From: Clavelina lepadiformis
Lineage: Eukaryota; Chordata; Ascidiacea; Aplousobranchia; Clavelinidae
NCBI RefSeq assembly: GCF_947623445.1
Contig: NC_135241.1
Location: forward strand, 18,230,501-18,294,500
Length of the DNA stretch: 64,000 nucleotides
Reading direction: 5' to 3'
Shown: piece by piece, positions 13,638-27,764 of the stretch
How positions within the stretch are numbered: the stretch's first letter is position 1
How the letters are laid out: every line of letters starts with the position of its first letter
Made by a program: the position numbers and the translations under genes
The notes under the pieces: model-generated
Told to the model about the DNA's origin: nothing
Database searches by the model: none
Seen by the model: the letters and a program-made list of their open reading frames with translations, nothing else

Positions 13638-16600
13638 CATGGATCACTCTGCTGGCGGTGGTTTGCATGACACAAATCGAAGTAATGATCTGCTGATGTT
13701 CTGCAATTATATTACTCAAGGAGACACAAATTCATCTTGCATTGTGACCTCTCCTCCAGATATTGTAGTTGCCGCTAATATAGAAGACAGCTCAAGATCT
13801 GAAACAGATTTGAGACACAAATCTACAGTAAGAATACGTAACACTGTGCTATGCTCTCTAACACAACATGGTCAAGTTAGGTATCAAAAGTAATGCTTTG
13901 CCTTAAGCAAACTATCATTATATTCAAGGAAAAGATATAAATTAATGATGTATCATGCTGCTTCTCGGCAAGGTATAAATTTCAGTATTAAATCCTACTG
14001 ACTGACAGTATTTACTCATACTTATTATAGATATATAATACCTAAGTCGATGAAAAAGGTATCTTTTGAGTTCATGATGAAATTGGCTTTAGCTTGTTTT
14101 TCGTGTTGTTTTAAAGTTTGGTAGGAGCTTGCTGTGTTTACTCCTTTGTTGTGTTTTAGGAAAGATTTCCTTTTGAAGAGTCTCAGGTAGACGTTGCTTG
14201 CTCCTGTTCTGCTGCTGACAACGATACGGGAGAAGAAATAACTGTGACCGAGGAAGAAATAGCACAACTTAATCATTTCGAAGCTGATATTAACGAACCT
14301 GACTACCACATCCCTTCCATAACTGTGGATGGTGAAGGTAATATTTTCAACATAGTGTGGTTGACATGTATGAGAAGTAACAAACGTTCACGGACCATTT
14401 TTCACTTGCAGAGGCTTTGGAAGGTTCATCTGATAGTGGTGGAGATTACTTGTCGCATGATAACATTTGTAAAACCATCAACGACATTACAAGCAACAGG
14501 CAAATTGCAGAGGTGTTCATTCCTGGTATTGGTATGTCTCAAAACACACTGCTAGAGACAGCTTTGTCCATGTCAAAGATAACACCACAAACTGTACCGA
14601 CTGGAGGTGAAGAGTTTCTTTCTATTGGACTAAATCAGCCACAGAATAGTAGTGGTTACCCAACATCAACTTGGCCTATTGACAGTATGAACGATAATGG
14701 TATTAGTGGAACCAACCCATGTGAGGCATCTTCCACTTACGTGTCATCACGACATACCTATACTCCCACAAATGTTGGCCACACCGATCTTGGATCATAT
14801 GCGAGCACGAACCTAAACAACACTTACGCGCATGGCGTATTATCGAGTACTGCCTACCAGGAGCAACAGCAGTATATGCCACAACAAAACCGGAATATTA
14901 TTGGAAACCAACTTAATCAGTTACTCCAAAACACTTCCTATCAGTCGCAAGATTTCCAAACCCATTTAAGGCCCGAGAGCTTGCCAGTGTCAAGGACACC
15001 AGAATTGCCATCTATTTCTTCATCGTATAGTAACAAGGTAAAGTTAAGATTTATTTACCTCACATAAAAGTTTAGAGATGTCCATTTCAAAATATTGAAT
15101 CCGATGCAAATACTCAAAAGTTATTAAAAATAATTGTTTATTTTTGTTAAAGTTTAAAGAAAAGTCAATTCAACTCTTATCTACATTGGTCATTTATGAA
15201 TAATGCTTAACGTATTTATGCCATAACATTAACATAGTTTTCTGAGATCAAATTTGTGTATTGGTAATTGGCATAATGCAACCCCATTTGACTTCCCATC
15301 TCAATCGCATTGACCTGTAAATAGTTACTTTGTATGGTAGTTTTGAAATCCATTTGATTTACCATGGATTGCTGGGCATTCAAGCACCTTTGACATACTG
15401 ATTCAATATTTTGTGTTTGAAATTAATTAATCTAGAATAATTTGAAATACAAAAATATTAAAAAACAGGACATTCTTATTTCCTATGTAAGATACATGAT
15501 TTTTAATTTTAGTGCACCTTGATTAACTGCCTCTGTATCTTAGGTTACTTATACGATTTCTTTGCTTTGCAGATTGAGTCTTTTCACCAAAATTCACAAT
15601 TCGGTGCGACCACTGTGCCCATTTCCCATGCTCAAACTGCAGATATGTTACAAACATACAGCACACCATTCAGCATAAGCAACAAAACTAGTTCTGATGG
15701 CCTACCTGTCAGTGGACACATCCACCAGATCGAAAGCGGTGAAGACAACATTATGGAAGATAGAAGTGGAGAAAAGAAGCTAACCACTACTCCGATCCCA
15801 TCTGATGCTGAAAAGATGTCAAGCAGCAGTAGTGTAAGCAGTGGCAGCCGTGAAGAATCTCCAAGTCCAAGGGACCTTGAAGCAGACTGCAGTATGAAGG
15901 AGGCAATGATGGGCATCAACTCATCACATTTGCATCACAAAAATGGGAATATATCTAACTACAGGAATGTAGATCATCATGCCAGTGATATGCAGAGAAT
16001 AAGATGTGATCCAGTTGTCCAGAATGCTCTCAGCAACTCAACGGTAGTGCTTAACAATGATGAGGTTTCAAATCCTGTACCAGTTGCGGAAAATACCGTT
16101 GAAATCGATGAAAGTTCCATGGAGTTTAATCGGGTGGAAATAGCGGATAGTAACAATGGTTTAAGCAAATTACTTCCCAGTGGCTCTGGTTCTACAGCAT
16201 TAAACACCCCTCAGCTCCCAAGTGAAGGCAGTACCCAAAACAAAACCATTCCCAATTTCGCTCCTGATGATGATCACATTGGTGAGGGACATGGAAACAG
16301 AATTAAGCATCATCGCATCAATGATCAACTGAGCTCATGGTCTGTAATGAAAGAGGAGAGAAGGAAACTGAAACTACAAAAGAAATTGAAAAAGTTGAAA
16401 CACCAGAATGAGCAGAATCAGATTCATTCCGATAAAAGAGAACATGCGGGCACCTTGAATGGGAATTTATTAAATATTGATGAGAAATCTTCCTACCACA
16501 AGCATAAGCATCGCAATCGTTCTAAGTCACATGGCAAAGGGGTTAGCACAACCTATGCACCCAATGATAGACTGCCAGCTTCTGCAGCAAAAAACAGTTT

Positions 16601-19600
16601 CCCAAGTGCATCTAGTGGATTAATTCCGAAAGTTACAGCAGATCCAACCAATACATCAAATTTATCAAGAATGAACTATTTGCCTCCAAAAAACATCACG
16701 GAAAAGGTCAAAAGCAGAAAAGATAAACACTCGGGCAAAAATCATGGTGCTTTATCACGTTCGTCAAAGCAGACACAAAACATTTCACCCCATGAAAACA
16801 CGCAACCTACTGCAAAGAAATCGCATCTTGATTCTTGTAAGTCAAGTCCCATTGCTCCACCAAAGTTACAGGTTGGTGTAAATCAGGTTGATGCAGGTGT
16901 TCATCGTTGGCAGACTGTCACAGCCATACAGGGACCGAAATTACCACCAATGCTGTCTGAAAGGGATCGTATACCAAAGCGTGGTCGTCCATCCAAGAAG
17001 ATGACTGAACTCAACTTGAAGCTTAAACCAGATCCCCCACCTGCACCTAAAGAGGTCGTTGATAAAGTAGCCTTAAATAATGAGAAACTGACTGCCACAG
17101 GCTCGAGTGTTGTGTCAATATACACCATAAACGACAAAGGCTTCATTGAACAGTTGGACGCTAAGCCGAAAGAAAATCGACGCAGCAAAGAACAAGCAGA
17201 AGCATTCAGGAATATGCTTTCAGAAATTTCGAAAAAAAGTTCAATACAGAAGAAGACTGCAGGTGCAAAAGATGTTGTTGGTGCATTTAAAGCTGTTGGA
17301 GTCCGTACCAGGAAACAAGCATCAAATAATACTTGTAATGATGCAAATGACAAAAAGAAAAAGTGTCAAGGCAAAGGGAATCCAATCGGTAATGACAATG
17401 AAAGTAATAAACATAAAGAAAAGACAGTTATGGAAGATAACGGTATGTTTACATTTTCCGAACTTGCCAAACAGTTTAAAATATCCAATTCTATTTTATA
17501 TCGTGCAATGGAACAATCACAAAGAAGCGCCTTATCAAGAAAAAATACAAAGAAAATCAAAGACAATGGCCATCAACATCGCAACAGCTCTCATGCTAAA
17601 CCTGCTAGTTTGTCAGAAAAAGCTAACAAAGTTGTTCCTTCTGGTAGACTGGATTCTTCTGCCCCGGAGAAAAAACTTACAAGCTCTTTAAGTAACAATG
17701 TTCAAGGTGGGAAAAACTATTGCAAAGTTCCAGCAAAAGAGTCATCAATATCGGATGTTGACCTTCCTCCTTTAAAACCAGTGTCATTATCGAGTGATAG
17801 GAGTGGTGGTCCAGAAGATGAAATTGTGAAGAGGAAAAAGAAGAAAAAAAAGCATAAAAAGGAGAGAGGAGAAAATGACAAGAAGAAAAAAAGCAAAGTT
17901 AAGAAGAAAAAAACTAAACACAAGGAGAAACGTGTCAGGGAACTTTCTGATTCCGTATTCACAACTGAAGCAACTGTCTTGCCAACACCAGCCAAGAATA
18001 ATGGCTCATCTTCTAGCCCAGTTAAAGAATCCAAGTCTTCACCAGTAGCATCGCCTGCAGCAGACGCTAAAAAACTAGCAACATTTACAACTCAATCAAG
18101 TAAACTTTCTCAAAAAGATCTAGCTCGTGCTAAAAACAGAGGCGTTTCAAAGCACGACTCCAATCGGAATACCAACGCTTCGACTCGAACGATGAGCATC
18201 TCAAGTTTGTCTGGGTGCGAGGAAGCTTATGATGCTGGTGACAGTTCTTCAGATATAGAAGTGTGCATCAAAAATGCAAAATCAGCAGAAGACAAAGACA
18301 TTCCACAAACAAGCACTGCGACTGATAAAAAATCTATTCCTTCTATTTTTGGCTCCAGTGTAAATGCAGTTATGCCTACCTTCCAAGGTTTAAAGGAACA
18401 TGGTGGCTTGATGCAGTTCTCAGAACGCACAAAGAGTGTTGACGAAACAAACCTGTTACGGTGTAAAAAACACAAACACAAGAAGAAGAAGTTTGTTGGG
18501 AAAGCTAAGAGCGCTTGTGATCCTAAATTCCTTTGCGAAATGGAAGAACTTGTCAAACAACTGGAATCTATGAAACTTTGCACTTCCGTCCAATTTATAG
18601 CAAATGCTTTTATGGGAAAAATATCCAACGTTTTTGCAGCTGGTTTACAGCCAAAGTCTGGTTCTAGTTTATTTCAATCACCTGGGGACAAAGATTCTTT
18701 CTCTTATCGAGATCCAGCCAAAAATCGATCAAAACAGAAAAAACAAAACGTGTTTAATGTTCCAAGATCTGCCCCAGATGCAGCCTCCTCTGCATGTGGT
18801 ACTTCCCATGAACAGTCAAGCATGTCCATGTTCTGCCGAGCGGAATTCTTCAGGAAACATGGCTATATCAAGCCATTTTCAGGTCCACCTGTAAACACCT
18901 TCTTGAAAACAAGCCAAGTGCCATCATCTCAAAAAAATGCTTCATCAAATTTGTTTGCAGACATAATTAAAGACTCGTCGTCCAAGCCATTTGGTTTTTC
19001 ATCCGTAAATGGGTCTTCATCCTTCATTCAGGCTAGCACGTCGAAGCCAGAGGAATTTTCTAAATCCATAAGTGCTTCAAAAGTGGACTTGAAATCTGGA
19101 AACCTTAGCATACCTAACAAGAAATCAATTAAACGAAAACCTGGTTGGCCCAAAGGTAGACCTCGTGGCCCTAGAGCAAAGAAACCTTGTTTGGATGTGG
19201 AGGAGGAGACAAATGATATTGTGCAGATTGAGGATTGTGGTGAGGAATCATTGAGGAAAACATCTAACCTTGTTCAGGCCCCAGAAATTTCCACCAGATC
19301 AACAGAATCAGCATCACAGAGTGTATTTGAAAGTCCAGAAAAAAGATCTTTTGGAGGGCAAGGAACATCTTCCCAAGACGATGATTCAGAAAAGTCACCA
19401 CCTGCAGTTTCTCGTCTTAATCATGAATTGCTCCATCACATTAAAGCTGCAATTTCCGCCAAATTTACATCATCTGACATGTCCTTAGATACAGTAGAGA
19501 AGACTCTGGATACAGCATTTGCTAGTTACCTCCAGCGCTTAGACACAAGTGTTAATCTTCCTTTTTCAACACCAGGAAATCTTCACGAATCTGTTACATC

Positions 19601-22600
19601 CAGCAAAGGTAATTTTCAAGATGAAAGCAAGCAAAATGAAGGAATTGCTTTCTCTTCAAATTCTCTGAAACATGATCTTCCGGTAAAAAGGTCACGGGGC
19701 AGGCCACCCAAATATCCCAAGTTAAGTAAACCTGGTAACGCAGTGTCATGCAACAATGAAGATATGAACAAGACCTCAGAAAAGCATCCCAAGAAGCTAT
19801 GGGCATCACTACACAAGGATTTAGCAAGTAACTCACCAAATTTTCTTGGCAAGCCAAAAAAACGTGGACCTGGACGGCCAAGGAAATACTCCCTAGAAAA
19901 TCTACAACAAAACGCTGCACCATCCAACAGCAAAGGTCAAAATTCCATTAGTGATGAGGCGGCTTTACTTGTCTCAAGTTGTCGGCGAGCAAGTGCATTA
20001 TATACTCCAAAAGCAAGACAGCTAAACAAACAAAACCGAGCAGCAAGTCCTCGGCGAACTCAAAAAGGACGAGGGAGGAAGGCCCAATCAAACTCAGTTT
20101 TATCAAACACGAAGTACAGTCATCTGTCGGCCAGTCTCTCCTCCAGTCTACCTGAAGACAAGAAAGGTGCAGTTAGAAACCACAAGTCCAAAGCTATATC
20201 TTCTGGTCAAGTATCCAGCAAAGATTTTAAACAAGAGAGAAAAGCACAACTGGAGTTTGCCACTTCAGATGCTGGGGTTTCTACTGAGTGCAGTGAAAAT
20301 GACATTAGCAATCACATTTCAGAAGCTATCGACACAACAATGAAATCAGTGTGTAGTGGCACTGAATCTAACAACTCAGCTATAAAGCAGAGATTGTCAA
20401 CATCTTCAGACACATCTCAGAAGGGCTGTAGCAAAAAGAGCCTGGAATCAGTGGTTGCGAAATTGAAGAGCAAACAGTCTGCTGCTAGCTTGGACCAGGT
20501 TATATTGTCGTCAGATTCCAGTTCATCCGGCCTTAAAACTCAAGATGAAATGGAGGTAATTAACAGTATTGATGAATAACTGAATCGATAATTTCAGCTT
20601 AAAGCAATTAAATTTCGATCTAAAGCTCATAGCATGAGTGGCGAGAAGAACATACGCATGCACAGAGTTCATTTTTTTAACGCAACCATTTCTTATTTTA
20701 CAGCAGGCACCCTGTGCAACAGATGATGACAGCCAAGGGTCACAGAATTCTAAGTCTGAAACAACTTTCTCTTACACTGAGATGGTTGAACCTGCATCAC
20801 CAACAACCTCTGATATTGTAGTTAATGTAGATTTGGATGACAACAGAAAGCAAATTGTGTCCACTGTCGATAGGTAAAAAAAGTATTCCTTTGTTACTGG
20901 ATTTTTGATTAATATGCCAAGATCTTTTAGTTATGTCAAGGCAATGTCATGTATTACATATAATTTTTTTTATGTCAATATTATTTTAGTTGGAAAGATG
21001 AAAACAATCATATCACATCGAGTCAAGCTAAAGTAAAGGAGTTTCAGAAGTCAGGCCTTTTTTCAGCTGCGTTAAAATCGGGCAGGTAATGTTAATTATT
21101 CATTGTTAAGCCATTGGACAAACTCTGTAAGATGTGCATATAATTTTGTGAAAAATTTTTGCCCTTGGCTATTGAAGTAGAAATTGTTGCTTTCTATTTT
21201 TTTCATGCGATATGTCACCATGTATTCAAACATAATTTATGCCTTAACGTCAGAATTTTAGTTCAGATAATGATTTGTAGTCATCACTGAAATATGTAGT
21301 ACCGCTCAAACTTATCGTTTAATTTTGCAACAGAAATGGTGAAACGTGTCAGTGCTGTCGTGACTACCAGTAGCAACCGCAGGTCTAATATAGTATTAGC
21401 TACCGTCAAAAGCACTATTTTGAATTATGTTGGTTTATCATTATAAACCTCTGAAATAGGCTTGGCAGTCTAGCTCACTGATAATTATGGATGGTCAGGT
21501 TATTGCATGATATGCTGTGTAATTCATTAAGTGTGCAATTATAGAGTATCTCATGATATCGATTAAAATACTTTACATGGAGCTATATGTGAAGTACAAT
21601 TTCAATCACACATTTTAAATTACCGGTTCTGTTTGTTTATGCTGCATTTACGTTGGCAAATATCAGAATGAAGTGTTTTAATCCATCCATCAAGTCACCA
21701 CACACTTGTGCTATCAATTTAAGTACCTAGCACAAAGTTTAGTAAGCATTGATAAGTAACTATTATGATATATTTACTCAGCTGTGATGATCACAAGAAC
21801 GTCGATGATGAAGATGGACAAACCCTGTTTGAGTCTTTATCTATTGCACAAGAATATATTTTGGAAAACCAAGCAAACTTCCAACTACCATACAACATAT
21901 GGCGCATGTTCAGTAAAAAACTCATAACAACTCAGGAAGACCTGGCCCAACGTTACACAAAGATTACAAAAAGTAAGAAATGTTTTGTTCCAATATAAAG
22001 TTGTTGTTTTATGGTATATATGGTATTAGGTACGGATTTTATGCAGTTGGCAAAGAAATTAAATCGTTTGCTGTTATTTTTCTCAGATGTTTATGTGGAT
22101 ACGCAACCTATCACAGAGCAGGAAACTCGTGCATGTGTTTGTCAGACTGATGAAGCCTCTGATGAAAAAGCTTGTGGAAAAGAGTGTTTAAACAGACTCA
22201 TGCATATGGAATGTTCGCCTGATACTTGCCCGTGTGGTCAAAGGTACAACAATATCATTAACTTTGTCATCCTACAACTTTTTCTTGTGAGACTTACACA
22301 GCCTAGAGCATGATGTGTCATTTTTGCGGGATGTCAGAGGTGGTCATCATATTGCCTTTGTTGCGTTGCGCGGTGCATTTAACTTATCCAATCACTACAT
22401 TGCATTTATTAATGTTAAGGTGTCGTAACCGGGACATACAAAACGGAAGATGGTTTCCACACATTGAGCCATTCAAGACTAACAACAGAGGCTGGGGTAT
22501 CAAGGCCACTAAACCTGTAGCAATAGGTAAGGTGGCGGAAGCCAAAAGCATAGGCATTTGTTGCATTCAATTATATACCCAGGTACACTGCGTGAAATTA

Positions 22601-25600
22601 CATGGTTTGTTCTGATTGGTTTAGGCCAGTTTATACTGGAGTACGTTGGAGAGGTGATTAGCGAACGCGAATTCCAACGCCGCACGAAGGAGACCTATGG
22701 CGCCCTCAGTGACCAATACTGCGTCCAGTTGGAAAACAACAAAATGATTGACGGAAATCGGCTAGCTAACATCGGCAGATTCGTCAACCACAGGTGCGTT
22801 GCCCCGTTTTAGGAAAGTGCTAGTTTATTTGTTACATTTTTGTTTATTTTGTCTTCTCCATTATTTTACTTACAATAATTTGCACTTTAGTTGCGAGCCC
22901 AACTGTGAGATGCAGAAATGGATTTCTACCGGGGAATACCGAGTGTGCTTGTTCGCAAAACGTTCAATCAACGTCGGCGAGGAACTGACGTGCGATTATA
23001 ATTTTCATACGTTTGAGCTCAATCGTCAGCAAGTTTGCAAGTTAGTAATAAAACGCCCTTAAATATTTTGACATCACTTAAACTATTTTAACAGACCTAA
23101 ATTTGTTACGAATGAATGAGATCTTCTTCAGTGGTAGATAAACCCATAAACGGTGGTAAAAATCTAGACTTTCGTTTATGTAGATGCGGAGCTTCGGGAT
23201 GCCGCGGAATTATTGGTGGAAGATCGCAAAGGGTCTATGCGGAAGGTTCTCTGAACAGGATGTCGAAGGTTTTGATCGGTCATAAAAAAACGAACGACAG
23301 CGCTAAAGAAAGCGATGGTCTCTTACACACAATAATATGTGTAAGTGCCTACTTTTTACATGGTTGTATTGCCGAATTGAGGTGAATATCGAAAATGTAA
23401 AATATGCGATCATTTATTTTTTATGTAGGATAACAGTCTGCAGCAAACTCCAATCGAAGAGAAAAACTTCATCCAGTCTCATAAAATCTTTCTCTTTCGT
23501 AACTTGACCCAAGTAAGAAACGACTTCATCGCGAACTGATAGCAGCTCGTTTGAGCGTGCGGTGTATTTAAATGATGAACGTTAATTACTTAGGCATTAA
23601 ATTTAGTTTTTTTTTTTCGGGAAGACGTGTTTAATTGGATATTCTTTTTCAACATAGAAACAAGTGGTAACATTTAACTTGGATCAGTAGTCTGAAAATT
23701 GCAGCTTCTTGGTGGACAAGTCGTTAAATATTTCCGTTGTTACAGATCAAACTTCAGCACGAACGAGCGAAGCTTCTAGGAACAAAGCCACAATTGGACA
23801 AAGTGTTTCTAAATGGTAGGTAGTTATTTTTGACGCATTGTTTTGGGGATTTTTATTCCTTTATATATTTCCTGTGGTCTGCGGAAAATGGTAAGGCATT
23901 CCCATTAAAGACGGAATTACCCGCTGGTAATTTTCGTTTTGTGAAATTAGCATATGGGAAACTTCACTTTTCCTCGTAAAAATATTGATTTCAATACGCG
24001 ATGCCAGCCTTTATGTTATGGCAGTAGTATGTATGTAGGCCTGTTATTCAGTCGTTCGAAAATTGCACATTTTCCCCCTTTGCTAAAACATTAAAGCGCA
24101 AATTTGTTTATTTTGGCTTATTATTTTTCAGGCTCGGAAGTCCCTGGCTCCGTAGAGGTCAGTACACTGCTTTTAGAACAAGATTTATTATGAGTTTCCA
24201 AATTTTTTAAAATAGTCCGTCAACGCACGATGTTTCCGTATGTAGACGCTTTTAGTAACCTTTCCATGTGATGTTCAAATTTCCTTTTTTTCAGATCGAA
24301 AATAGAAACTCCCGTTTGCTCTATGAGATAATTAAGGGGATATTTTCTGAAGTGATGACGTGCAAAGACGACAGTGGAGTGTCGATCGCCATTCCTTTCT
24401 TCCAGCTTCCAACTAAGCAGAAGTAAGCTCGCTCCATTTGTGTATAAGTATTTGGTAATTCTCTCTCGTGGTACATGCACCAGTGCCATATATTTTACAA
24501 GCAACAAATGGTTTGTTTATTAATTATTTTCGTCGTTGTTATTGATTTCAATATCTTAATTGCCTTTTTCTCGCGCAGCAATCTCGGGCATTACGACCAC
24601 AGTAACGACCCGGTCGATCTGAGCTATGTCCAGGATAAGATTGGCACTGACCAGTACGAGAGTCTCGATGATTTTTCAACCGATCTCTTGCATGCGTTTA
24701 GAAACGCAGAAGTGAGCAAAAACTTCTTAAATCCAATCTTATACAAAGAGTAATATAAGGAAAAGTGGCATACGAGATATCTCGGCATTTCGAATTTTAA
24801 GGGATCTTTATTGCTTATTCCATGTTTATTGTTCATACTAATTAAATACTAATTAAATCTTCCGAATCCTTCATCTGCTAAATAATATTAAACAAATGAT
24901 TTTATTAGACCTAAGTGCATTTACTTTAGTTGCAACAGCACTGTCTTAATCTAAATGTTTTTCACCGATTTCAATAGAAACACCACGGTCGAAAAACCTC
25001 TCTTGCAAAGGATGTAGGCAAACTACGTCGAGTTTTTACCGCCGCAAGGAACGCTGCTGCCGCCAAACTTGGTGGCCTCACAGAAAAAAATAAGGTTGGT
25101 AACAATCTTCATTAAAATATACTTAATTTAACGCAAATTACTCAATTCCTGCCAAGTTGGGTGTCCAAAATGACTTCAAACGCCCGGAAGTATTTCCCCG
25201 TGATAACCTGCATCCGAGTTCTCTGTATTCGTCTTCTGATTGTTTTGCAACAACGCAGGAATTAGAGGAACTTCAAAGTGAGTTGGAGGACAGACGCAAG
25301 AATGGCGATTACATCCGATGCATCTGCGGCATCTACAAAGACGAAGGACTGATGATACAATGCGAAAAATGCTACGTAAGCAATTTACTACAATAACCGT
25401 TTCTAATAAAAAATCTTGCTTACCTAATATTGGAACCGCCCTAACTTCGACAACACTCGGTCTTTTTCGCTTCAATCGTAGGAAAATGTAGATTAGTGTT
25501 ATCAACGCGGTGTAACATTTGCTTGTTCAAGTGTTTCTTTTTCAATCTTTTAGGTCTGGCAACACTGCGACTGTATGAAAGTGAGTCCAAGTGATTACAA

Positions 25601-27764
25601 CGAAGGGACTTCTTATCTGTGCGAGGAATGTGATCATAGGGAAGTACCGAAAGAGGTCGAAGTCGTTCCTCAACCTCCGAGTGCTCCTCCCGGACACACT
25701 TATTATCTAACTCTACTCAAAGATAGTCTGTTGGTCAAAGTCGGTAAGTGTCGCTATGGAACCAATAAAGTTTTTTAATGTTTTAATTACCATTTTAAAC
25801 AGAATCAACATTTTATTTTGTCAAATATTATTGTTTTCCTTTTTCGTTCATCGTTTGGTTTTACGTGTTTTCAGTATTTTGTTTGTGAACTAACAATATC
25901 AAATTCAAATTAAATTTTAGATTTTAGATTTTAGTGCCTGAAAGATAAATTTAAAATCTGTGTTTTTTTCGATCATCAGGAGATTGTGCTCGCTTGATTC
26001 ACGATCATTGCTTACGTCAACGATCTTCAAACAATCCTCCAGTTCGGTCCTCCTACAGGCTTCAGTCCCACTCCACTTCAGATCGCATGGACTTCTTCAG
26101 GATCAAGAAGTTATGGACCGACGACAAGTAAGCAGCTTCTGTCGAATTGTCTCAGTCAAATTTTCGAGGAAGTCAATTAGGAAAACAAATTTATTTAAAA
26201 AAACGCTCGAGACAGTTTTACTTATTTTCTTAATTACGGAATTGTAAATATTTGCATTATATTCACTTTTTTGTAATCATAATTTCTTAATAATTGACGT
26301 TTTTTTAACTCTCCTATTAATTAATAATTAGATTATTTAATCATTTCGCCAAACATGGTTTATATTACAGTGGGGATAAGTTCGCTTACGGCCAGCACTA
26401 CATCCGTCCCCACGATAGCAAGCATTCAGAATCTCGTCTTTTCTTCACAAACGAGCTCCTCGCCACCTCTTTCCATGAAATAGTTCCACTAGAAGCAGTC
26501 GTCAGTCTTATTTGTGTAATGGAGCTGGCAACATACAGACGAGGCAGACCGAAAGGTAAGATTGTCCAAAGAAGCAATCTTAAAAATTGATTATAGCATA
26601 ATTGGCGAAGCATTGAAAAACGTAATTTATTCGCAAACAAATGGAGCGTATCGTTGTGTTTGAACTTGTGACTGGGATAGTTTTGTTAATAAGCAAACTG
26701 TTGGGAAGTGTCGAAAGTAAGCTCAAACGCGTGAAATTCAACCAGGTTTTAAAGAAGCGGATTTATACATCTGCCAGCATCGAGTTGACCTGTCTTTCCG
26801 CATCGTGAACAAAGTGATAAGGACAAGTTATCCGATTTGCACAAAACCCCACGTCTTTGATGCGTTCCCCGTCCGCCTAACAACTGTTAGAGATTTTCAG
26901 GTAAGTGTCGAAATTTGAGCTCGTTTTCATTTTTCCAGGGATTTATTACTACACTACGTTGTTGACTATTACGTAGAGATGCATGCTACGTGACATCATA
27001 GAGTAGGTGATAGAAGCAAGTTCGATTTCGGTGCTAACCGAACTTTCCAGTTGATCGATAGACATTACATTTATGATGACAATAAACATCACTTTTAAAA
27101 TGGCAGGTTCCGGAGCAGTTTAGAAAAACCCAATCTCGACGCACTCAGTGGTTTAAATCGATCGACAGAAATACGAAGTCTGACGAAGGTAGAACATTTT
27201 TTCCTCGATTACACACATTTGTTGTTTATAGCACTGGCATTTGTTTGCTGTGGCCAATACTGGCTGTTAATTAATATATTGGTGTATCCTTAACACAGAA
27301 CTTTGACACTTTAATGTTTGCAGAAGATAGCAGTGGCGATGAGACCGATGGAGGCAACAACGTTGACGAGATCGTGGGATTTGAAACCTTTTCCAGGGAC
27401 CCGGAAATGCAGAATTCGCCGACCGGAAGTGAACGTAACGTAAAAGAAAGGAGACTGGATGGGATACTAAGCAAATTAAGAAATAACGCGTCCACACGGG
27501 TAAGCGGATAAAGGGATTTGATATATTTTCAAAGTTTGACATGATAGTTACAACAAGTCCAAATTGGAATCGAACATCAGTAACATTGAATCGTTTGTGC
27601 AATGTGCAAACTGTAGGTTGATATTTTGGATATGTTCAATATAGCTTAACGATAACTTGATGTAAGGTATATCTTGCATTGTTTTGTCACTGTTAATGAA
27701 CATGAATTGGTCGTTTGAATGTTCTATGTGGTTAATTGCAGACGACATCGAGTGCTATGGAATG
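13618..27764 (+). CDS. ASH1L: ASH1/ASH1L histone-lysine N-methyltransferase
   Basis: Nuclear trithorax-group enzyme; the family dimethylates H3K36 and keeps genes active. Exons: 13618-13827, 14160-14337, 14412-15037, 15573-20555, 20704-20873, 20990-21085, 21782-21972, 22087-22243, 22420-22526, 22625-22793, 22891-23040, 23184-23340, 23429-23512, 23746-23815, 24132-24157, 24295-24422, 24579-24711, 24978-25094, 25259-25375, 25554-25743, 25980-26127, 26371-26555, 26746-26900, 27107-27188, 27324-27499, 27741-27764. All junctions are GT-AG and in phase, giving about 2942 aa; human ASH1L is 2969. Features by residue: four AT-hooks (near 806, 1529, 1711, 1767), a conserved [12 protein letters not shown] block (about 1321), AWS-SET-postSET (about 2152-2398), bromodomain, PHD and BAH. 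Alternatives: start 13639; exon 19 start 25157; readthrough of 27500 gives a stop three codons later. An in-frame TAG at 13600 argues that coding starts in this exon. Confidence 0.95.
17827..17936 (+). other. Poly-lysine / purine-tract segment of ASH1
   Basis: Inside the 4983-nt exon, about 36 codons are mostly AAG/AAA ([14 protein letters not shown], then [15 protein letters not shown]). The plus strand is almost pure purine here. It probably acts as a nuclear-localisation or DNA-binding basic patch. A second shorter patch near 18468-18495 (KKHKHKKKK) directly precedes the [12 protein letters not shown] block, matching the order basic patch then DPDFIAELEEL in human ASH1L. Confidence 0.7.
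22087..23223 (+). other. ASH1L: AWS-SET-postSET catalytic block of ASH1
   Basis: Four full exons plus the start of a fifth encode the methyltransferase core. The AWS cysteines are intact ([16 protein letters not shown]). In SET, the cofactor/pseudoknot motif reads [16 protein letters not shown] and is joined across the 22793/22891 intron. Post-SET reads [14 protein letters not shown]. The motif that is ELTYDYN in human ASH1L reads ELTCDYN here: TGC at 22991-22993, residue about 2330. This is the Phe/Tyr-switch position that sets methylation multiplicity in SET enzymes. The following loop reads NFHTF where human has NFHSF, within the known autoinhibitory segment. All other core motifs look functional. 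Confidence 0.9.
24295..26900 (+). other. ASH1L: Bromodomain-PHD-BAH block of ASH1
   Basis: Bromodomain: exons 24295-25094, containing [18 protein letters not shown] and, across the next junction, [21 protein letters not shown], which parallels human [20 protein letters not shown]. PHD finger: split at 25375/25554. Cysteine pairs CIC and CEKC, then WQH with CDC, then CEEC form the Cys4-His-Cys3 set. BAH: 25980-26900, with [33 protein letters not shown] and a YRRGRPKGF segment close to human TYCKGRPKGV. The order matches the vertebrate protein. Confidence 0.92.

Follow-up and report, generated by a model that had tools for sequence, protein, structure and literature searches.

A cysteine at the Phe/Tyr-switch column of ASH1 in the light-bulb sea squirt Clavelina lepadiformis

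In the light-bulb sea squirt Clavelina lepadiformis, a 64,000-nucleotide stretch of genomic DNA (the window, whose positions are used throughout) holds an apparently intact ASH1 gene with a cysteine codon at the Phe/Tyr-switch column of the SET domain, where human ASH1L has Tyr2253 (a numbering counted from Ser2259). In flies, ASH1 maintains the activity of HOX genes through dimethylation of H3K36 (PMC5963871). The Phe/Tyr switch is proposed to work by way of its affinity for active-site water, the departure of which eases the addition of further methyl groups (PMC3356298). The question raised by the locus is whether the cysteine is genuine and, if it is, whether it changes the product of the enzyme. 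The original prediction, that product specificity or rate may be altered, is partly supported by the results discussed here; missing from it were a published precedent, the MLL3 substitution Y4884C, and a second gained cysteine.

The switch codon and the gene that carries it

The codon at 22991..22993 (plus strand, as for all ASH1 features given below) reads TGC, within the context GAG GAA CTG ACG TGC GAT TAT AAT, which translates as EELTCDYN. It lies in an exon (22891..23040, in the frame from 22892) that has AG/GT borders and encodes the end of the SET domain; the cysteine noted originally is confirmed, and a wrong reading frame or an intron at this codon is ruled out. TGC is indeed, as had been noted, one transition away from TAC.

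Joining 20 exons gave a gene model that runs from 15513 to 26900, possibly short of the gene's termini on either side, and comprises 2,531 codons with no stop. It opens with a large N-terminal exon (15513..20555) that begins at the start of the open frame, its true 5′ splice site not being fixed. There follow exons encoding most of the AWS domain (22087..22243), the end of AWS with the start of SET (22420..22526), the SET core up to the split NH|SC (22625..22793) and, downstream of the exon with the switch, an exon opening with the post-SET Cys motif (23184..23340), two exons with most of the bromodomain (24295..24711; its end is in the next exon, 24978-25094), two with the PHD finger (25259..25743) and three with most of the BAH domain (25980..26900).

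That the gene is ASH1, as originally proposed, is borne out by the Pfam AWS, SET, Bromodomain, PHD and BAH matches, which are all above the cut-off and stand in ASH1 order, and by the catalytic domain, for which an ASH1L chain is the best match (2e-74, against 2.7e-46 for the best SETD2 chain and 1.4e-45 for the best NSD-type chain, 6kqq). Its 211-residue catalytic stretch and human ASH1L (3ope) can be aligned with no gaps, 106 of the 211 residues being identical. Fourteen of the 16 human cysteines in this stretch are kept (those lost are 55 and 67), the AWS and post-SET zinc ligands presumably among them, and both NHSC and the catalytic Tyr (TAT, 22997..22999; human Tyr2255) are retained. Moreover, a FQLP sequence (21879..21890) precedes the first Cys of AWS by 43 residues and corresponds to the FxLP motif through which MRG15 activates ASH1, reported to lie about 40 residues before AWS (PMC5963871); three MRG-domain matches are present in the C. 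lepadiformis genome. Considering that NHSC, the catalytic Tyr, 14 of 16 cysteines, FxLP and the domain order have all been kept, broad decay of ASH1 is ruled out, and the expectation that the rest of the SET domain would be intact holds. In the autoinhibitory loop, human Ser2259 is replaced by Thr (23009-23011) and human Gln2265 is kept (23027-23029).

A whole-genome search with ASH1 returned five matches, one of them full at 100% and the other four weaker SET matches; on this result a second copy of ASH1 or a retained haplotig in the assembly is ruled out. The copy searched, at 209.06 Mb in 95 contigs, differs slightly from the published kaClaLepa1.1 (210.1 Mb, 102 scaffolds). The search of the genome contigs gave one relative, a distant SET protein (L036, 3001-3096) that has Tyr at the switch and comes from a bacterial contig, binned as Candidatus Moraniibacteriota; in the viral contigs scanned, no relative was found. 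Within ASH1 itself, the Tyr of the human enzyme is matched in Neurospora, where Tyr886 is the predicted switch (PMC6251624); the statement that ASH1 normally carries Tyr is thus correct for these two, and on the sequences compared the sea squirt Cys departs from the residue common to both.

The switch column in other SET proteins and a second cysteine

The view that other SET enzymes have either Phe or Tyr at the switch proved too strong. Human KMT5B has Cys in this column (EEISCYYG), as does the Suv4-20 of C. lepadiformis (EEITCFYG), so Cys is native to the column in the Suv4-20 family; SETD7 has Val. Searching the genome for SET domains gave 31 matches, 30 of them with loci, from which 19 genes were read, some of them pieced together by eye out of two or three loci (outside the count are L014, L020, L021 and the one match that has no locus). 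The switch residue in these genes, which were named by recognition except for SETD8, Suv4-20, EZH and MLL3/4 (matched to PDB chains), is Phe in 11, Tyr in four, Cys in two, Asn in one and Ile in one. Since KMT5B/Suv4-20 carry Cys, SETD7 carries Val and four of the 19 genes have neither Phe nor Tyr, the column is not always aromatic; further, most human SET proteins are reported to be without aromatic residues at the conventional positions (Suv4-20h2 paper). The SETD2-like (L002/L009) and NSD-like (L003/L013) genes keep Phe, which leaves ASH1 as the only one of the H3K36 enzymes found in the genome to show the change.

Two other groups of SET sequences came to light in the same search. Of two SETD8/KMT5A-like genes (L006, G000:C5:26819-27166, minus strand; L012, G000:C7:9634864-9635058), one has Tyr at the switch (EELLYDYGDR) and the other Phe (EEMLFDYGDR), the natural equivalent of Y334F, a substitution reported to turn SET8 into a dimethylase; the Phe copy is matched best among PDB chains, by a narrow margin, by 3f9w, listed as the engineered SETD8 Y334F mutant, and the pair also differs 15 residues before the switch (Val and Ala). 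Additionally, five PRDM-like SET matches (named by recognition), four of them with loci (L035, L032, L026 and L030), lie within about 17 kb (G000:C4:4410418-4427335), and L026 and two others have stop codons inside the match.

Compared with human ASH1L, exactly two cysteines have been gained in the 211-residue stretch, one at the switch and one (TGC, 22946..22948; human Gly) 15 residues before it, at position -15. Suv4-20 and SETD7 likewise have Cys in the -15 column, and among 15 tabulated C. lepadiformis SET genes (the remaining four of the 19, read by eye, have Ala in the G9a-like gene, Met in the MLL3/4-like gene and Tyr in both PRDM-like genes) only ASH1 and Suv4-20 do so. Both families that share this residue have relocated the switch: in Suv4-20h2 it is replaced by Phe191, supplied by another part of the polypeptide (Suv4-20h2 paper), and in SET7/9 it is Tyr305 (PMC3356298). 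A hand count puts both Phe191 and Tyr305 two residues beyond the Cys of NHxxxPNC, and thus in a single column. The count runs back from the motif Tyr, which is Tyr217 in Suv4-20h2 and Tyr335 in SET7/9. At this alternative site ASH1 has Met in both human and sea squirt (ATG, 22910..22912, also by hand count), and NSD2 T1150 belongs to the same column, being 27 residues before F1177 just as the ASH1 Met is 27 before the switch Cys. Read as switch, -15 and alternative site, the residues are Cys, Cys and Met in sea squirt ASH1, Cys, Cys and Phe in Suv4-20, Val, Cys and Tyr in SETD7, and Phe, Gly and Thr in the SETD2 and NSD genes of C. lepadiformis. The sea squirt ASH1 therefore appears to resemble the relocated-switch layout minus the aromatic residue at the alternative site, a resemblance in which the pairing of cysteines was noticed after the fact and is backed by few families.

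Other residues of the pocket may have changed as well. NSD2 L1120 is reported to adjoin the K36 side chain (PMC10244704), and its column, tentatively placed, holds Leu in human ASH1L and Val in the sea squirt (GTC, 22723..22725). When nine columns of the pocket, known from NSD2, Suv4-20h2, MLL3 and EZH2, are compared (the placing of NSD2 L1120, EZH2 A677/A687 and Suv4-20h2 W174/A178/I181 being tentative), with human ASH1L as the sole ASH1 reference, six residues differ and five of the six are smaller, for a total of -192 cubic angstroms. A volume as low arises in 1.3% of random nine-column sets, or in 7.0% if the switch column is omitted, in a test that is weak and exploratory, given that the columns were chosen after the sequence had already been seen. 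The fly protein presumably shares Gly and Val at two of the nine columns, so part of the shrinkage may be old.

Possible consequences for H3K36 methylation

We suggest, at slightly less than an even chance, that the sea squirt ASH1 is a working H3K36 methyltransferase whose lysine pocket has been widened, such that the enzyme favours H3K36 already bearing methyl groups and is able to go on to me3. Loss of the switch ring would remove the Tyr hydroxyl together with its bound water and leave more room; a pocket without Tyr would hold mono- and dimethyl-lysine better; and the enzyme would then work best on H3K36me1 or me2, with me3 within reach, as for MLL3 Y4884C on H3K4. Part of the gap may be filled by the second Cys and the alternative-site Met, like the residues found there in Suv4-20 and SETD7. 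MLL1 reportedly methylates its own active-site Cys, and by this parallel one may speculate that the thiol in the ASH1 active site could itself accept a methyl group.

This interpretation draws on published mutants, which agree with the original premise that the switch position affects product specificity. MLL3 Y4884 occupies the same column as the ASH1 switch (4848+36 = 4884, counted on the KMT2C chain), and Y4884C was reported to turn this monomethylase into a trimethylase that prefers H3K4me1, with me3 formed in vitro and H3K4me3 raised in cells, at an activity on H3 fourfold below that of the wild type (PMC4379744). Yeast Set1 Y1052A, Y1052V and Y1052F are described as active; relative to wild type their me1 came to 0.35-0.63 and their me3 to 1.05-2.70, changes of threefold at most that were silent in two functional assays (PMC3585878). 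In Set2, F234Y takes the product back to me1/me2 and Y149F favours me3 (PMC8110526); NSD2 T1150A, for its part, is reported to give me3 output and an enlarged pocket (PMC10244704). Suv4-20, with its Cys in the switch column, requires a monomethylated substrate according to the Suv4-20h2 paper. We favour an active ASH1 with a relaxed product on the strength of the MLL3, Set1, Set2 and NSD2 precedents, of the kept cysteines, FQLP motif and domain order, and of the weak me3 activity that Neurospora ASH1 appears to have in vivo even with its Tyr. The confidence placed in it is limited because the precedents include no animal ASH1, because MLL3 Y4884C is fourfold weaker and because NSD1 Y1971C, which alters a different pocket (cage) residue, was found inactive (PMC10244704).

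The same mutants can be read otherwise. Given that the Set1 substitutions were silent in both assays, that most human SET proteins are without the conventional aromatics and that the switch rule is loose, MLL4 in complex going on to me3 although it has both tyrosines, the change might be near-neutral, with ASH1 still making H3K36me2, other pocket residues setting the product and Cys being tolerated. We regard this as somewhat unlikely, since a Tyr common to human and Neurospora ASH1 has apparently been conserved through a very long span of evolution, and since the paired cysteines suggest a packed rearrangement rather than a simple loss. The reduced activity of MLL3 Y4884C and the inactivity of NSD1 Y1971C could instead point to a weakened or inactive enzyme, with ASH1 acting mainly through its reader and scaffold parts; Ash1 was, moreover, reported as not found in the tunicate Oikopleura dioica (PMC5240408), and the need for it may therefore be relaxed in tunicates. 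Decay would, however, be expected to strike NHSC, the catalytic Tyr, the 14 kept cysteines, FxLP and the domain order too, and all of these persist, which makes such a loss improbable.

Ascidians are polymorphic, a single haplotype was read and one transition suffices for the change, so the cysteine might conceivably be an allele private to the animal sequenced, or else an error in the base call. Against this, the kaClaLepa1.1 assembly is reported to have a QV of 67.4 and 117-fold HiFi coverage (PMC10884593), which corresponds to about one base error in five million per base; an error at TGC is thus very unlikely, and an assembly error at the codon was rejected on this ground. Additionally, the accompanying -15 Cys and the Leu-to-Val change argue for a settled state and not a stray allele. 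Taken together, a private allele or an error appears quite unlikely.

Returning to the widened, active enzyme that we prefer, a bolder form of it is that C. lepadiformis has a natural H3K36 trimethyltransferase apart from RNA polymerase II, obtained through the substitution of the MLL3 mutant, stabilised by the second Cys and a pre-existing Met, and amounting to a further independent origin of a relocated switch. H3K36 trimethylation is normally the task of SETD2 (PMC9116022), and we consider this form unlikely. More generally, the sea squirt may hold a natural version of an altered cancer enzyme, and from a living animal with the cancer-mutant substitution one could learn whether normal development tolerates a pocket of this kind. 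In the literature found on the ASH1L Tyr switch and on tunicate Ash1 histone methyltransferase, seen in part and with subscription journals thinly covered, an ASH1 with Cys as its switch residue was nowhere described, and the motif strings ELTYDYN, ELTCDYN, EVTYDYN and ELTFDYN were absent from the texts searched. The change is a Cys switch in one enzyme of a known family, and makes for an unusual active site.

Relation to known systems

Sea squirt ASH1 shares with human ASH1L the AWS-SET-postSET, bromodomain, PHD and BAH arrangement, the catalytic Tyr, the Met after NCE and Gln2265, and differs from it by Cys for Tyr2253, Cys for Gly at -15, Val for Leu beside K36 and Thr for Ser2259. Neurospora ASH1 is likewise an H3K36 methyltransferase and appears to have a weak me3 activity in vivo (PMC6251624), although with Tyr886 at its switch. 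MLL3 (KMT2C) Y4884C has the same Tyr-to-Cys change at the same column, but is a somatic cancer mutation in an H3K4 enzyme, was tested with WDR5, RBBP5 and ASH2L, and has Ile at -15. SETD7 (SET7/9) has in common with sea squirt ASH1 a non-aromatic switch column and Cys at -15, and differs in Tyr305 at the alternative site and in being described as a monomethylase. Finally, Suv4-20 (KMT5B) has both cysteines but belongs to another family with another substrate (H4K20), and the Met that ASH1 has in place of its Phe (Phe191 in Suv4-20h2) indicates that the protein is not a Suv4-20; since this Met is not aromatic, the layout is a full copy of neither Suv4-20 nor SETD7, and sea squirt ASH1 offers a natural test of how the switch, the residue at -15 and the alternative site work in combination.
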